A DNA stretch of 64,000 nt from positions 124,001-188,000 of the forward strand of contig JAQBQB010000026.1 of the NCBI GenBank assembly GCA_028287235.1, read 5' to 3'. Below, one piece after another: positions 15,185 through 56,777 of this stretch. The notes under the pieces were generated by a model, which saw only the letters and a program-made list of their open reading frames with translations, searched no databases and had not been told where the DNA came from. The stretch's first letter is position 1. Each line of letters starts with the position of its first letter. Position numbers and translations under genes: made by a program. The DNA is from Gemmatimonadota bacterium. GTDB lineage: Bacteria > Gemmatimonadota > Gemmatimonadetes > Gemmatimonadales > Gemmatimonadaceae.

Positions 15185-15682
15185 ATGCGGGTGACGTGGG
15201 TCGCAATTCGCTTGATCGGCTACGCTGCCGGACTCGCGCTAACAGGCGCGGGGACGCTCGTAGCGCAGCGTGCGACCCAGGTGGTGAGCTTTCGCGTCGA
15301 GGCGATCCAGGAAGTCTCCGTCGAAGGCTCGCCGTCGCTCACCATCTCGAGCGCCATTGCCGGACAGGCGCCCACGAGCGTGACCGCTTCCGGCAGCACG
15401 TGGAACGTCTCGACGAATCTCACCGGCGCCAAGGTGACGGCCAGCCTCGAGTCCGACATGCCGAGCGGCGTGACCCTCTCGATCGACCTCGCCCCGCCGC
15501 CGGGTGCGACGAGCGCCGGCCGCAAGCCGCTCGGCGCCGCGCCGGTCGATCTCGTCACCAACGTGACGAAGCTGACGGCGACGCATCTGCCGCTCAGCTA
15601 TCGGCTCGACGCTACTCCTAGAGCGGGCATCGTCACCGCGGGCACACGCGTCGTGACGTTCACGATCACCGGCGGAGTCTGA
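15185..15682 (+). CDS. Secreted protein of unknown function
   Basis: A 165-residue protein with an N-terminal hydrophobic segment (VAIRLIGYAAGLALTGAGTL) and AQ cleavage site. The mature part is Ser/Thr/Val-rich with alternating hydrophobic positions, suggesting an all-beta fold of the kind seen in small pilus- or coat-like secreted proteins (VVSFRVEAIQEVSVEG, TRVVTFTITGGV at the end). No family recognised. The 136 bases upstream contain an A-rich stretch with repeated aaaacgg/aacgg motifs but nothing I can name. Convergent with PadR, three bases apart. Confidence 0.6.
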   Translation: MRVTWVAIRLIGYAAGLALTGAGTLVAQRATQVVSFRVEAIQEVSVEGSPSLTISSAIAGQAPTSVTASGSTWNVSTNLTGAKVTASLESDMPSGVTLSIDLAPPPGATSAGRKPLGAAPVDLVTNVTKLTATHLPLSYRLDATPRAGIVTAGTRVVTFTITGGV

Positions 15683-15685
15683 CGC

Positions 15686-16024
15686 TCAACCCGCCGCGCC
15701 GAGCAACCGGCGCAGGTCGATTCCTTGCCACAGTCGCTCGCGCATCGACCGCGTCTCGGCGAGCGCACGACCGCCGGCCGCGGTGATGGAAAAGAGCCGC
15801 CGCGACACGCCGTCGATTGTCGAGCGCTTGGACGCCACGAGCTCCTTCGCCTCGAGCCGGTCCAGCGTGGCGTACACCGCGCCGACGGCGATCTCGCGCC
15901 CGGTGACGTCTTCGATCTCACGCCGCACGGTCATGCCATAGGCGTCCGACGCGGTGCGCAGCACGGCGAGCATGACCTGCTCCTCGAACGTGCCGAGCGG
16001 CACTTCATCGCGCGCGAGTTTCAT
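15686..16024 (-). CDS. PadR-family transcriptional regulator
   Basis: A 112-residue PadR protein of the short (PadR-s2) type. It shows the winged helix FEEQVMLAVLRTASDAYGM, the recognition helix region EIAVGAVYATLDRLEAKELV and the wing SKRSTIDGVSRRLFSITAAG, followed by a short C-terminal helix for dimerisation. The motif G-A-V-Y-x-T-L-D-R-L-E is diagnostic. PadR proteins are usually autoregulated repressors answering small molecules and in related phyla often sit beside FtsX-like permeases; none is present here. A 13-base palindrome 48 bases upstream could be its operator. Divergent from the metX operon. Confidence 0.9.
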   Translation of the reverse strand: MKLARDEVPLGTFEEQVMLAVLRTASDAYGMTVRREIEDVTGREIAVGAVYATLDRLEAKELVASKRSTIDGVSRRLFSITAAGGRALAETRSMRERLWQGIDLRRLLGAAG

Positions 16025-16071
16025 GATCTAATTGAAGAAGGATTCGTTCAATCCACTGCACGTGCCATCAC

Positions 16072-16084
16072 TCTACATTGTAGA
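16072..16084. promoter_or_regulatory. Candidate PadR operator palindrome
   Basis: TCTACATTGTAGA is a perfect palindrome about an unpaired central base, located between the PadR start and the metX-operon promoter. The position suits autorepression of PadR. No second copy was noticed nearby. Low confidence because one short palindrome is weak evidence. Confidence 0.35.
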
Positions 16085-16101
16085 ATATAATCACACGACA
16101 G

Positions 16102-16130
16102 TTGACGCTGCCCGTTCGCCGCGCTACACT
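16102..16130 (+). promoter_or_regulatory. Sigma70-like promoter of the metX-metB-cysK operon
   Basis: TTGACG and TACACT with a 17-base spacer. Transcription would begin near 16137, about ten bases before the SAM-II aptamer, which is the expected position for a riboswitch leader. Confidence 0.65.
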
Positions 16131-16147
16131 CCTTCCTACAATCGAAG

Positions 16148-16200
16148 TCTCGTGGTGATTTGCCGCCCATTGCCGCCACGTTAAACAAAGAGCTAAACCG
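16148..16200 (+). ncRNA. SAM-II riboswitch aptamer
   Basis: The segment carries the conserved SAM-II pattern: CGTGG (16151-16155) pairing with CCACG (16176-16180), the invariant TGATTTG after the first strand, TTGC before the second, GTTAAACAA directly after it, and the closing GCTAAA (16192-16197). The pseudoknot pairing TTTG (16159-16162) with CAAA (16186-16189) is available. SAM-II aptamers bind S-adenosylmethionine and are known mainly upstream of metA/metX-type genes in Proteobacteria. Here it precedes metX, and a terminator hairpin begins six to nine bases after it, suggesting transcriptional rather than translational control. Confidence 0.88.
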
Positions 16201-16203
16201 CGA

Positions 16204-16241
16204 CGCGCCCGGCGGCCTTCTCGCCCGGGCGTTTTGTGTTT
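16204..16241 (+). terminator. Intrinsic terminator directly after the SAM-II aptamer
   Basis: CGCCCGG (16206-16212) pairs with CCGGGCG (16225-16231), followed by TTTTGTGTTT. It would act as the expression platform of the riboswitch, stopping transcription about 200 bases before metX when SAM is bound. How the aptamer and hairpin exclude each other is not obvious from the sequence. Confidence 0.7.
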
Positions 16242-16257
16242 TCCGACCCATCTGCTC

Positions 16258-16359
16258 ATGCACTCGATGATCTCGACCACCGCGCAGTCCATGCGAATGA
16301 CGATGACGACCGCGTCTCCAACCGGAGCGACGGACGGGCGATCGCGCATGCGTGCGTAG
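16258..16359 (+). CDS. Methionine-rich leader peptide
   Basis: A 33-codon frame with six methionines, four of them in the first sixteen codons and in the pattern SMRMTMTT (MHSMISTTAQSMRMTMTT). It ends 34 bases before a strong terminator and 84 bases before metX. The density of ATG codons and Thr codons is far above chance and resembles the layout of threonine- or branched-chain leader peptides, but for methionine. No clear ribosome site precedes it. A pairing GATCG (16340-16344) with CGATC (16398-16402) of the terminator arm is a weak antiterminator candidate. It probably senses Met (or Met plus Thr) aminoacyl-tRNA. Confidence 0.62.
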   Translation: MHSMISTTAQSMRMTMTTASPTGATDGRSRMRA

Positions 16360-16393
16360 GTCTTCGAGTTGAGCCAACGACTGGCTTCACCGC

Positions 16394-16426
16394 CCCCCGA
16401 TCTCTCCACGAGATCGGGGGTTTTTT
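16394..16426 (+). terminator. Second intrinsic terminator (attenuator) before metX
   Basis: Perfect 11-base stem CCCCCGATCTC (16394-16404) and GAGATCGGGGG (16410-16420) around a five-base loop, then six T. It lies in the 5' leader, downstream of the Met-rich frame and 18 bases before the metX start, so it must be conditional or it would silence the operon. Confidence 0.88.
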
Positions 16427-16443
16427 CATATAGGAGAGTTGGG

Positions 16444-17532
16444 ATGTCACGGACCATCGATGTTGCGGATGTCACGACAAAAGTCATCTCGAGCGGGCGG
16501 AGTGACAGCGGCGTCCTGCGGGAGCGAAGCGCCAGTGTCATCCTGAGCGAACGAAGCGCCAGTGTCATCCCGAGCGGGCGGAGCGCCAGTGTCATCCTGA
16601 GGGAGCGAAGCGACCGAAGGATCTCCCTCCCCGGCTACGAGCTCACCGGCCCCCGCGACGCCCCGCTCATCGTCGTGCTCGGCGGCATTTCCGCGACGCG
16701 CCACGCCACCGCCACGCTCACGGATCCTACCACAGGCTGGTGGCAAGACATCGTCGGCAACGGCCGCGCGATCGACACCGCAACGTACCGCGTGCTGAGC
16801 GTCGACTACCTCGACGGCGGTGTCACTCGCGATGGCCGACCACAGCGCACCATCACGACCCACGACCAAGCCGCCGCGCTCGCGTCGGTGCTCGACGACG
16901 TCGGCGTCGCGCGCGCACACGCCGTGGTCGGCGCGTCGTACGGCGGAATGGTCGCGCTGGCCTTTGCCGAGCACTTCCCGTCGCGCCTCGATCGCCTCGT
17001 CGTCATCAGCGCCGCGCACGAAGCGCATCCCATGAGCACCGCGCTGCGCGGCATCCAGCGCCGCATCGTCGAGCTGGGCATCGACACCGGACGCGCGCAC
17101 GAATCGCTCGCGCTCGCCCGCAGCCTCGCCATGACGACGTACCGCAGCTCGCAGGAATTCGCCGACCGCTTCGAATCCGAGCCGCTCTTCTGCGACGGCG
17201 GCGACGCGACCTTTCCGGTCGACGAGTACCTCCGTCACCACGGCGAGCAATTCGCCGCGCGCTGGCGCCCCGAGCGCTTTCTCGCGCTGTCGCTGTCGTG
17301 CGATCTGCATCGCGTCGACCCGCGCCGCCTGCGCACCCCGACGGTGATCGTCGCCGCGGAAGGCGACCGCGTCGTGCGGCGCGAGCAGCTCGAGGAGCTC
17401 GCCAACCAGCTCGACGTCCCGCATCGCTTCATCGATCTGCCGACCAAGCACGGCCACGACGCCTTTCTCACCGAGCCCGAACGCCTCGGCTCGATCCTCT
17501 GTACCGCCATCTCAACGACGATCGTCTCATGA
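16444..17532 (+). CDS. metX: Homoserine O-acyltransferase (MetX-type alpha/beta hydrolase)
   Basis: A 362-residue enzyme that acylates homoserine with acetyl- or succinyl-CoA, committing it to methionine. Features are the oxyanion strand LIVVLGGISATRH, nucleophile elbow GASYGGM with Ser165, an Asp in the VAAEGDRVVRREQLEEL region and the catalytic His in TKHGHDAFL near the end. The elbow reads GASYGGM rather than the GGSMGGM of many MetX proteins; acetyl versus succinyl preference is open. Residues about 14-60 are encoded by an in-frame array of short genomic repeats (VILSERSAS type) and have no counterpart in the family. TAGGAGA stands seven bases before the ATG. The stop overlaps the next start (ATGA). 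Regulated by SAM-II and Met-leader attenuators. Confidence 0.88.
   Translation: MSRTIDVADVTTKVISSGRSDSGVLRERSASVILSERSASVIPSGRSASVILRERSDRRISLPGYELTGPRDAPLIVVLGGISATRHATATLTDPTTGWWQDIVGNGRAIDTATYRVLSVDYLDGGVTRDGRPQRTITTHDQAAALASVLDDVGVARAHAVVGASYGGMVALAFAEHFPSRLDRLVVISAAHEAHPMSTALRGIQRRIVELGIDTGRAHESLALARSLAMTTYRSSQEFADRFESEPLFCDGGDATFPVDEYLRHHGEQFAARWRPERFLALSLSCDLHRVDPRRLRTPTVIVAAEGDRVVRREQLEELANQLDVPHRFIDLPTKHGHDAFLTEPERLGSILCTAISTTIVS
16483..16622. repeat. REPIN-like short repeats inside metX
   Basis: Five degenerate direct copies of gtcatcctgagcgaacgaag type. The clearest tandem units are 27 bases long and end cgccagt. The array ends with cgaccgaaggatc. All length changes between units are multiples of three, so the metX frame is kept. 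Confidence 0.9.
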
Positions 17533-18755
17533 CCTCCTCGCACATCAACGGCTCCGTGACGCGCGCCGTGCGCGCCGGCATCGCCACCGACTCCGCGCAC
17601 GGCGCGGTCGTTCCGCCGATTCATCTCTCGTCCACCTTCGCCTTCGCCGGCTTCAATCGCCCACGAACGTACGACTACACGCGCAGCGGCAATCCCACGC
17701 GCTCGCAGCTCGGCGACGCGCTCGCCGAGCTGGAACAGGGCGCGTCGGCAGTCGTGACGAGCACGGGCATGTCGGCCGTCACGCTCGTCCTTCAGCTCGT
17801 GAAGCCCGGCGACACGATTCTCGCCGCGCACGACTGCTACGGCGGCACCCATCGCCTGTTTCGCGCACTCTCGGCGCGCGGACACTTCAACGTCGTCTTT
17901 GCCGACCTCACCGGCGCTGACGCCGCGGCAACGATCGCCGCGCATCGCCCGCGCATCCTCTGGGTCGAGACGCCGAGCAACCCGCTGCTGCGAATCACCG
18001 ACATCCGTGAAGTCGCGGCGGCGGGCCGCGCCGCCGGCGCCATCGTCGTGGTTGACAACACCTTCCTGTCGCCCGCACTCCAGCAGCCCATCACTCTCGG
18101 CGCCGACGTCGTGGTGCACTCCACGACGAAGTATCTCAACGGCCACAGCGACGTCGTCGGCGGCGCGGTGATCACTGCCGACGCCGCGCTCGGCCAGGAG
18201 CTAACCTGGTGGGCGAACTGCCTCGGCATCACCGGCGCGCCGTTCGACAGCTATCTCACCCTGCGCGGCGTGCGGACGCTGTACGCCCGCATGACGCAGC
18301 ATCTCGCCAACGCGAGCGCCGTGGTCGATGCGTTGTGTAGTCACGACGCCGTCGAGCGCGTGTACTATCCCGGCATGCGGACACACACTGGACACGACGT
18401 GGCCCGGGGCCAGCAGTCCGGATTTGGCGCCATGATAAGTTTCGAGATCGCCGGCGGCACGGAGGCGGTGGAGCGGTTCGCGTCGCATCTCCAGTGTTTC
18501 ACGCTCGCCGAGTCGTTGGGCGGTGTGGAGAGCCTCGTCGCGCATCCGGCGACGATGACGCATGCGTCGATGGACGCCGCGGCGCGCGAAACCGCCGGAA
18601 TTCGCGACTCGCTCGTGCGCCTCTCGGTGGGTATCGAGCTGGCGGACGATCTCGTCCACGATCTGACGGCGGCGCTCGATCACACGCTCGCAGGCACGAG
18701 CGCGCGGCCGGCGGCGGTATCAGAGAATACTCAACTCGTAGGAGCGACCACGTGA
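17529..18755 (+). CDS. metB: Cystathionine gamma-synthase / O-acylhomoserine sulfhydrylase-type PLP enzyme
   Basis: A 408-residue Cys/Met-metabolism PLP enzyme. The PLP lysine is Lys201 in HSTTKYLNGHSDVVGG. Other signatures are YTRSGNPTRSQL, STGMSAVTLVL, HDCYGGTHRLF, VETPSNPLLRITDI and SLGGVESLVAHPATMTH. SLGGVESL with the long C-terminal domain fits gamma-synthases and beta-lyases. Beside metX and a cysteine-synthase gene, gamma-synthase (acylhomoserine plus cysteine to cystathionine) is the most natural role. Start and stop overlap the neighbours (ATGA before, GTGA after), so the three genes are translationally coupled. Confidence 0.9.
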   Translation: MTSSHINGSVTRAVRAGIATDSAHGAVVPPIHLSSTFAFAGFNRPRTYDYTRSGNPTRSQLGDALAELEQGASAVVTSTGMSAVTLVLQLVKPGDTILAAHDCYGGTHRLFRALSARGHFNVVFADLTGADAAATIAAHRPRILWVETPSNPLLRITDIREVAAAGRAAGAIVVVDNTFLSPALQQPITLGADVVVHSTTKYLNGHSDVVGGAVITADAALGQELTWWANCLGITGAPFDSYLTLRGVRTLYARMTQHLANASAVVDALCSHDAVERVYYPGMRTHTGHDVARGQQSGFGAMISFEIAGGTEAVERFASHLQCFTLAESLGGVESLVAHPATMTHASMDAAARETAGIRDSLVRLSVGIELADDLVHDLTAALDHTLAGTSARPAAVSENTQLVGATT

Positions 18756-19726
18756 ACGATGTTTCCGCGGCCCCATCCGCATCGTCCGGCGAGCGCGTCG
18801 ACGCCGCGATCGGAACGACGCCCGTCGTACGGCTGACGCGCGTCGTGAGCGGCACGGAAGCGGAAGTGTGGGTGAAGCTGGAAGGCATGAATCCCGGCGG
18901 CTCGATCAAGGATCGCACGGCGCTCGGCATGATCCTCGACGGCGAGCGCAGTGGTGCGCTGAAGCCGGGCGGCACGATCGTCGAGCCGACGTCGGGCAAC
19001 ACGGGCATCGGTCTCGCGCAGGTCGCGGCGGCGCGCGGCTATCGGCTCATCCTGTGCTTGCCTGCTTCGATGAGCATGGAGCGCAAGCGCACGCTCGAGG
19101 CGTACGGCGCCGAGCTGGTGCTCACCGATCCCGAGCGCCGCATGCTCGCGGCGATCGAGGAGGCGGAACGTATTCGCGATACCACCGGCGCGTGGATGCC
19201 GAACCAGTTCTCGAATCCCGCGAACCCGCGCATTCACTATGAGACGACGGGCCCCGAGCTCTGGGCGCAGCTCGACGAGCGCATCGACGCGTTCGTCTAC
19301 GGCTCCGGAACAGGCGGCACGATCAGCGGCGTCGGACGCTTTCTGAAAGAGCGGCGTCCCGACACGCTCGTCGTCGCCGTGGAACCGGCGCGCTCGCCCG
19401 TGCTGTCCGGCGGTGAGCGTGGACAGCATCAGTTTCAGGGCATGGGTCCGGGCTTCGTTCCGCCGAACTTCGATCGGAGCGTCGTCGACCGCGTCATCCA
19501 GGCATGGGAGGAAGACGCGTTTCCGCTCGCGCGCCGGCTCGCGCGGGAAGAAGGATTGTTCGTCGGCATGTCCACGGGCGCCATCGTGGGCGCCGCGCTC
19601 GAGATCGCGCGCGAGCTCGGCCCCGGCAAACGCGTCGCCTGTATCTCGCCCGACTCCGGCGCTCGCTATCTCTCGACGACGCTCTTCACCGACGACACCG
19701 AGCCGCCGCCGCACCCGGTCATTTGA
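18752..19726 (+). CDS. cysK: Cysteine synthase / cystathionine beta-synthase-type PLP enzyme
   Basis: A 324-residue fold-type II PLP enzyme. PLP Lys53 lies in NPGGSIKDRTAL; the substrate loop is PTSGNTGIGLAQ; the phosphate-binding loop is GSGTGGTISGVGRFLK; the C-terminal Ser-binding motif is ISPDSGARYLST. This matches O-acetylserine sulfhydrylase (sulfide plus O-acetylserine to cysteine); short CBS enzymes look alike. Starts at GTG overlapping the metB stop, with TAGGAG about nine bases upstream. It would supply cysteine to MetB and use sulfide from the reductase at 7.5 kb. No serine acetyltransferase is seen in the window. Confidence 0.87.
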   Translation: MNDVSAAPSASSGERVDAAIGTTPVVRLTRVVSGTEAEVWVKLEGMNPGGSIKDRTALGMILDGERSGALKPGGTIVEPTSGNTGIGLAQVAAARGYRLILCLPASMSMERKRTLEAYGAELVLTDPERRMLAAIEEAERIRDTTGAWMPNQFSNPANPRIHYETTGPELWAQLDERIDAFVYGSGTGGTISGVGRFLKERRPDTLVVAVEPARSPVLSGGERGQHQFQGMGPGFVPPNFDRSVVDRVIQAWEEDAFPLARRLAREEGLFVGMSTGAIVGAALEIARELGPGKRVACISPDSGARYLSTTLFTDDTEPPPHPVI

Positions 19727-23885: not shown

Positions 23886-24181
23886 TGTCAGCCAGAGCGC
23901 AGCCGTGTCATCCTGAGCGCAGCTGTGTCATCCTGAGCGCAGCCATGTCATCCTGAGCGTAGCCATGTCATCCTGAGCGTAGCCGTGTCATCCTGAGCGT
24001 AGCCATGTCATCCTGAGCGCAGCTGTGTCATCCTGAGCGCAGCTGTGTCATCCTGAGCGTAGCGAAGGATCGCTGTCGTGGCTGAGCGATCCTTCGACTC
24101 GCTTCGCTCGCTCAGGATGACAACGCCTCGCCTTCGCTCGCTCAGGATGACAACGCCTCGCCTTGGTTCGCTCAGGATGAC
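23886..24181. repeat. REPIN-like repeat array between lctP and the epimerase
   Basis: About nine head-to-tail copies of gtcatcctgagcgcagctgt with an exact 20-base period, running into gcgaaggatcgctgtcg. Inverted copies follow (gatccttcgactcgcttcgc, ctcaggatgac) with a 30-base period. The two halves face each other, so the whole can form a long hairpin. This fills the gap and leaves about 25 bases before the epimerase ATG. Confidence 0.92.
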
Positions 24182-53677: not shown

Positions 53678-53919
53678 GTCGTCCTGAGGGAGCGAAGTCC
53701 TGTCATCCTGAGGGAGCGAAGTCCTGTCATCCTGAGGGAGTGAAGCCGTGTCATCCTGAGAGAGCGAAGCCGTGTCATCCTGAGAGAGCGAAGCGACCGA
53801 AGGATCGCTTTCCACGGACGGCGATCCTTCGCTTCGCTCAGGATGACAGCTTCGCTCAGGATGACAACTTCGCTCAGGATGACAAGCGCGCTCAGGACGA
53901 CACGCGCGTTCAGGATGCC
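53678..53919. repeat. REPIN-like array filling the 53639-53940 gap
   Basis: Five direct copies (gtcatcctgagggagcgaag) with a 24-base period, centre cgaaggatcgctttccacgg, then five inverted copies (cttcgctcaggatgacaa) with an 18-base period. The gap contains nothing else except about 20 bases before the GTG of the flippase gene. Confidence 0.93.
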
Positions 53920-56622: not shown

Positions 56623-56777
56623 GATCCTTCGCTTCGCTCAGGATGACAAAGACGTTGTCATCCTGAGCGAGCGACGCCCCCGGTTGTCATCCTGCGCAGG
56701 CGAGGCCCCGGGTTGTCATCCTGAGCAGGCGACGCCACCGGGTGTCATCCTGAGCGAGCGTAGCGAGTCGAAGGATC
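56623..56777. repeat. REPIN-like array, outward-facing type
   Basis: Begins with an inverted half (gatccttcgcttcgctcagg, atgac), then four direct copies (gtcatcctgagcgagcgacg) about 29-30 bases apart, and ends gcgagtcgaaggatc. The order of halves is the reverse of the other arrays. It nearly fills the gap between two convergent genes. Confidence 0.9.

Follow-up and report, generated by a model that had tools for sequence, protein, structure and literature searches.

Introduction

The trp, his, leu and thr operons of enteric bacteria are preceded by leaders that encode a peptide rich in the regulatory residue, can form alternative 1:2, 2:3 and 3:4 pairings and have their terminator last. The leader described in this study differs from these classical attenuators in that the residue is Met (or Met and Cys) and in that a riboswitch precedes it. 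A double check of SAM and of Met-tRNA charging is otherwise achieved by tandems of a SAM-I riboswitch and a T box. In these tandems, too, two elements share one leader in front of the same genes, and the logic is the same (NOT SAM AND uncharged tRNA-Met). However, they use SAM-I instead of SAM-II, the tRNA is read by the T box RNA rather than by a ribosome, and they belong to other bacteria.

Other described systems share parts of the arrangement. In the SAM-II/SAM-V tandems of marine bacteria (PMC11508383, PMC9481103), a SAM-II aptamer with its terminator comes first and a second switch follows, but both sense SAM and the second acts on translation. In Sinorhizobium meliloti, SAM-dependent termination was predicted for the SAM-II leader of metZ, and that of metA has a further terminator downstream, although no control by a Met leader peptide was reported (PMC9373788). 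A candidate leader peptide containing Met and Cys, MSTTSDRTPATEATTTPGARCMCRRMCAF, is encoded by metL ahead of metNIQ in Streptomyces lividans (PMC8079986). That case differs from ours: no intrinsic terminator was found, the transcript is leaderless, no riboswitch is mentioned and the operon encodes a transporter.

Here, we analyzed a 64-kb stretch of DNA (hereafter the window) from a bacterium of the family Gemmatimonadaceae in the phylum Gemmatimonadota. Our preferred reading, to which we give a probability of roughly 0.85, is that transcription must pass two successive checkpoints in the leader of metX-metB-cysK, which would allow read-through only at low SAM and with charged Met-tRNA in short supply. 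The two devices would read two points of one pathway, and the tandem would mean that the double check of SAM and Met-tRNA was invented a second time. Both halves of the tandem are known devices. In the open-licence literature searched, we found no description of a metabolite riboswitch placed in series with a ribosome-mediated attenuator, with a separate terminator for each, nor of SAM-II combined with a leader peptide attenuator. An earlier sequence-only reading of this locus had likewise named no described tandem of this aptamer with a Met leader peptide. The same literature gave nothing relevant on a described Met leader peptide or on SAM-II in Gemmatimonadota, except for the S. lividans metL.

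Organization of the leader and the operon

All of the elements that the sequence-only reading had placed in series (promoter, SAM-II aptamer, first terminator, Met-rich frame, second terminator and metX ribosome site) were located on the forward strand between 16102 and 16444. The promoter-like site TTGACG-17 bp-TACACT (16102..16130), which is of the sigma-70 type, matches the consensus at 9 of 12 positions, and similar sites lie at the equivalent position in the leaders of two genus-mates, L035 and L036. At the other end, direct reading revealed GGAGAG, which resembles a ribosome-binding site (16433..16438), ahead of the metX ATG at 16444.

The identities of the three genes were assigned by NCBIfam models scoring above their cut-offs. 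The gene metX (16444..17532, forward strand) is homoserine O-succinyltransferase-like (PRK08775, 353.9 bits, cut-off 296). It is followed on the same strand by metB, encoding cystathionine gamma-synthase / O-succinylhomoserine (thiol)-lyase (frame limits 17535..18755; TIGR02080, 570.3 bits, cut-off 504.6), and by cysK, encoding cysteine synthase A (frame limits 18713..19726; TIGR01139, 427.1 bits, cut-off 351). A divergent PadR-like gene (15686-16024, reverse strand) forms the other flank of the leader interval. The part of metX that encodes the N-terminus (16483-16630) has several in-frame copies of a repeat of about 27 bases, GTCATCCTGAGNGAGCGNAGCG, read as SVILSERSA, which is missing from the L035 and L036 orthologs. 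A pattern search allowing at most 2 mismatches counted 76 copies of this repeat in the genome; further copies in the window lie near 24100, 30041, 36905, 38282, 50296, 53702-53795 and 56657-56765.

SAM-II aptamer and the first terminator

The aptamer (16142..16218, forward strand) matched the Rfam family SAM-II (SAM_alpha, RF00521) with 39.4 bits and an E-value of 2.2e-5. As this exceeds the gathering score of 36, the SAM-II assignment made earlier from the sequence was confirmed. It was the sole Rfam match within the window. The Rfam alignment contains the P1 stem, also seen in the fold (CGTGG 16151-16155, CCACG 16176-16180), and the conserved GAUUU...GCUAAA core (GCTAAA at 16192-16197). The Rfam model has no pseudoknot; a candidate CGC:GCG pair for the P2 pseudoknot was recognized by eye, with UGC:GCA in another leader, L048. 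The aptamer would be expected to bind SAM. Another SAM-II aptamer of this genome (L001) stands before metH (gene read from sequence) and has one terminator only.

The first terminator (T1) consists of a hairpin (16206-16231, forward strand) with a predicted fold of -16 kcal/mol and the tail TTTTGTGTTTT (16232-16242), in which the T run is interrupted. T1 is a weaker consensus match than the second terminator (T2), because a generic terminator scan listed only the latter. The T1 hairpin is the same in L035 and L036, and a T1-type terminator was carried by 82 of the first 123 SAM-II sites. A terminator right after SAM-II had been presented as unusual in the sequence-only reading. These counts show otherwise, and intrinsic terminators had already been reported after 'many representatives' of SAM-II (Corbino 2005, PMC1273637) and are also known from PMC9373788.

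The aptamer loop L1 offers a candidate antiterminator strand. The motif GCCGCC occurs in it twice (16162-16167 and 16172-16177; 16162..16177, forward strand) and is complementary to GGCGGC, which lies in the T1 5′ half at 16211-16216 (forward strand). The two were paired in a fold of the window, which ignores the SAM-II pseudoknot. Among the 82 leaders, pairing between L1 and the T1 5′ half scored -10.7 for own partners vs -9.2 for exchanged ones (sd 0.22, 0 of 5000 permutations; relatedness uncorrected). The complementarity covaries, with compensatory classes GCCGCC/GGCGGC, GCCGCG/CGCGGC and GGAGGC/GCCTCC. Across these 82 sites, again with relatedness uncorrected, the terminator is thus accompanied by an alternative antiterminator built from aptamer sequence. 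As terminators after SAM-II were known, the L1/T1 pairing is a new detail and not a new kind of control. For SAM-II switches that act on transcription, it supplies an antiterminator that can be put to the test. When SAM is absent, GCCGCC would base-pair with its T1 complement GGCGGC, allowing transcription to go on. When SAM is present, the pseudoknotted aptamer would hold GCCGCC, T1 would form and transcription would stop.

Met-rich leader frame and the second terminator

Between the two terminators lies a short frame encoding MHSMISTTAQSMRMTMTTASPTGATDGRSRMRA and ending in a stop codon (16258..16359, forward strand), in which 6 of the 33 codons are Met; the densest Met run, ATGCGAATGACGATG, is at 16291-16305. 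Directly after the run, the fold places a small hairpin, CTCC-AACC-GGAG (16316..16327), which would be the 1:2 pairing of an attenuator, and similar hairpins were observed at the matching place in most aligned leaders. The antiterminator strand, region 2, is GGAGCGACGGACGGGCGA (16324..16341). Among metX leaders it is kept as GGGAGAGACGGACGGGCG, with a CTCCC/GGGAG-type hairpin between the Met run and region 2. Region 3, CCGCCCCCCGATCTCTC (16390..16406), shares bases with the T2 5′ arm and is able to pair with region 2. T2 itself (16394..16426), identified by both the terminator scan and the fold, is a perfect 11-bp terminator with its hairpin at 16394-16420 followed by TTTTTT. All of these elements are on the forward strand. 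Run, hairpin, region 2 and T2 are arranged as in a classical attenuator, with predicted 1:2, 2:3 and 3:4 pairings.

The ribosome would translate the Met-rich leader peptide. If charged Met-tRNA were short, it would stall in the Met run, region 2 would pair with region 3 and T2 would not form. If Met were plentiful, the ribosome would move on and T2 would stop transcription. No Shine-Dalgarno sequence was found before the leader ATG in the window, L035 or L036.

The window alone gives a weak signal. When 250 bases of it were shuffled 2000 times with dinucleotides kept, about 5% of the shuffles had an equally dense Met cluster (as many Met codons in 12). Therefore, the Met frame is not decisive by itself, and conservation decides. 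Similarly, the antiterminator of the window by itself was not significant (p 0.13-0.15). The case for the tandem rests on comparison.

We compared 18 leaders that carry T2. Folding of region 2 with the T2 5′ arm, which ignores the ribosome, exceeded dinucleotide shuffles at p<0.05 in 12 of the 18, with a combined p of 6e-14 (relatedness uncorrected). The leader tail scored -25.3 with its own T2 5′ arm vs -21.3 with those of others (sd 0.73, 0 of 5000 permutations; relatedness uncorrected). The paired sequences differ among leaders and covary: GGAG/CTCC, GAGAGG/CCTCTC, GCGGCCGGG/CCCGGCCGC and GGCCGGGGGC/GCCCCCGGCC. Region 2 begins 5-52 bases, mostly 13-27, after the Met/Cys run. Taken together, the 18 leaders have an antiterminator, mutually exclusive with T2, just 3′ of the regulatory codons (p 0.13 for the window alone).

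We also searched the leader for other second elements. No T box was matched by Rfam in 16090-16470 at E-values up to 5, which rules out this element. Likewise, no SAM family matched between T1 and metX in the same interval at E up to 5, ruling out a tandem of two aptamers (SAM-II/SAM-II, SAM-II/SAM-V or SAM-II/SAM-I).

Conservation and distribution

Five genus-mates were searched, and a close metX ortholog was found in two of them (L035 and L036). The other three are no test of conservation, because they have no close metX ortholog. Both L035 and L036 keep the aptamer, T1, the Met frame and T2, as the sequence-only reading had expected of close relatives. Their leader frames, MIISMRRMQMRMSMAAASLARGSDGRHRLRA in L035 (Met-rich part beginning MIISMRRMQMRMSM) and MRTIMSMTMRMMRMMRMTMRMTMRMTMRMTTASLSRESHGGRRMRG in L036 (Met-rich part beginning MRTIMSMTMRMMRMMRMTMRMTMRMTMRMTT), lie between T1 and T2, and one of the two has 16 Met codons. 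The expectation that the elements would persist with metX in close relatives held in both of these genus-mates. Two sister genera retain SAM-II, T1 and metX but no Met frame: the leader of G016 (L047) has a second hairpin and no Met frame, and that of G055 (L048) has neither. Hence, the second module is common, but not universal. In L036, the Met run consists of repeated ATGCGAATGACC units in tandem (MRMT), and repeat slippage may therefore change how many regulatory codons there are.

SAM-II was present in 140 of the 148 genomes of the family and in 137 of 200 genomes of the phylum. The comparison set comprised 177 different SAM-II leaders, almost all of them from Gemmatimonadota. In 18 of these, another intrinsic terminator lies 100-380 bases downstream. 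In every one of the 18, a short frame enriched in Met or Met/Cys codons precedes T2, with its stop 19-36 bases before it. At a fixed threshold of at least 4 Met/Cys codons in 14, the table was 15/3 with T2 vs 5/154 without T2 (Fisher p 5e-15). Three leaders fell below the threshold: L108, whose frame was seen separately but had been removed by a length filter, and the pair L164 and L165, which have 3 Met/Cys codons in 14. It is by this comparison (about 5% for the window alone) that a short frame enriched in pathway codons stands ahead of an intrinsic terminator. A 19th tandem leader, L294, was found later. One further SAM-II leader, L130, has no leader frame, and its two terminator-like hairpins are separated by only about 40 bases.

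Tandem leaders occur in several genera of the family of the window and in two or more further families of its class (f4: G239, G269; f5: G206, G245). It is very probable that three or more families of this class share the tandem device, with Met or Met and Cys codons according to the pathway. We think it likely, with somewhat more reserve, that Gemmatimonadota have a modular, phylum-wide set of SAM-II plus leader-peptide attenuators, previously undescribed, whose codons were retuned (Met for metX, Cys for sulfate assimilation, both for metY) into serial NOT-SAM AND low-Met-tRNA (or low-Cys-tRNA) gates. In that case, a phylum for which we found no such report would gain leader peptides of the Met and Cys kind that are linked to intrinsic terminators. 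Met leaders are not a general trait of SAM-II: the combination of a second terminator and a Met/Cys frame was found in none of about 70 SAM-II leaders from Alphaproteobacteria (class of a Brevundimonas genome). One of the alphaproteobacterial leaders, L360, has a short frame ending in RRMCRCRCRT, and no T2 was found there. Among 79 loci with metX relatives, no convincing Met leader independent of SAM-II was found before metX.

Alternative explanations

The SAM-II riboswitch might be the only regulator, with an accidental Met frame and with T2 as a constitutive damper or a maker of small RNAs, as has been proposed for S. meliloti metA. A constitutive terminator and riboswitch-containing sRNAs are indeed known after S. 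meliloti SAM-II (PMC9373788), and the Met frame of the window alone stands at the 5% level. However, a Met or Met/Cys frame stood before T2 in 18 of 18 leaders and in only 5 of 159 elsewhere at the threshold, the spacing from stop to T2 is narrow, the tail pairs with T2 and the codons fit the pathway. An accidental frame was ruled out through this comparison, not from the window alone, and we regard a SAM-II-only leader as improbable. We think just as little of the idea that the second module acts by an arrest peptide sensing SAM, methionine or another ligand, or by Rho or translational coupling, instead of stalling at hungry codons. In favor of this idea, a C-terminal GETDGR-like stretch is strongly conserved among metX leaders. 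But this stretch is the RNA antiterminator GGGAGAGACGGACGGGCG, so its conservation is explained without a role of the peptide. In addition, Met codons differ freely in position and in number (3 to 16), as would suit codon counting and not a specific arrest peptide, and T2 is intrinsic.

Both modules might also be real but work mainly at different times or from different promoters (one of them, for instance, internal and located between T1 and T2), in which case no AND gate would result. Some tandem switches do have internal promoters (adenine/T box Tyr, PMC9481103). Nevertheless, a promoter scan of 15500-17000 gave sites only upstream of the aptamer, and we consider such a separation very improbable. 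The AND gate for methionine synthesis proposed in the sequence-only reading is the best reading of the leader, at the strength of a prediction from sequence: the operon would be made only if both SAM and Met-tRNA charging are low.

Codon identity and pathway

The identity of the regulatory codons tracks the pathway, with Met before metX and Cys before cysND-cysC-cysH. The leaders before metX have a Met run (the window, L035, L036, L156 and L164; L157 has one Cys among four), and those before metY have Met and Cys (L098, L252 and L262, the gene being read from sequence in the last two). Met codons were also found before homoserine dehydrogenase-like and aspartate kinase-like genes (L277 and L263, genes read from sequence), with six consecutive Met codons in L277. 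Cys runs (ACACMC...CCC; CACMC, CCC) precede the sulfate assimilation genes OsmC-cysN(C)-cysD-cysC-cysH in L142 and L114. This natural series of Met, Met plus Cys, and Cys could serve to test how leader codons are matched to pathways.

In L142 and L114 (L234, L238), SAM-II, the Cys-rich frame and a second terminator stand before an OsmC-like gene, cysN, cysD, cysC and cysH. These leaders are candidates for a SAM-controlled attenuator that responds to Cys-tRNA and regulates sulfate assimilation. In L139 and L108 (L239, L235), the gene behind SAM-II and a Met/Cys leader is mercaptopyruvate sulfurtransferase-like, with homoserine kinase (thrB) after it. In L104 (L237) and L294, SAM-II, a Met/Cys leader and a second terminator precede an ATP-grasp (RimK-like) gene, and in L104 (L237) a dimethylsulfone monooxygenase-like gene lies downstream of it. 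These ATP-grasp-like and dimethylsulfone monooxygenase-like genes are possible new members of the sulfur regulon.
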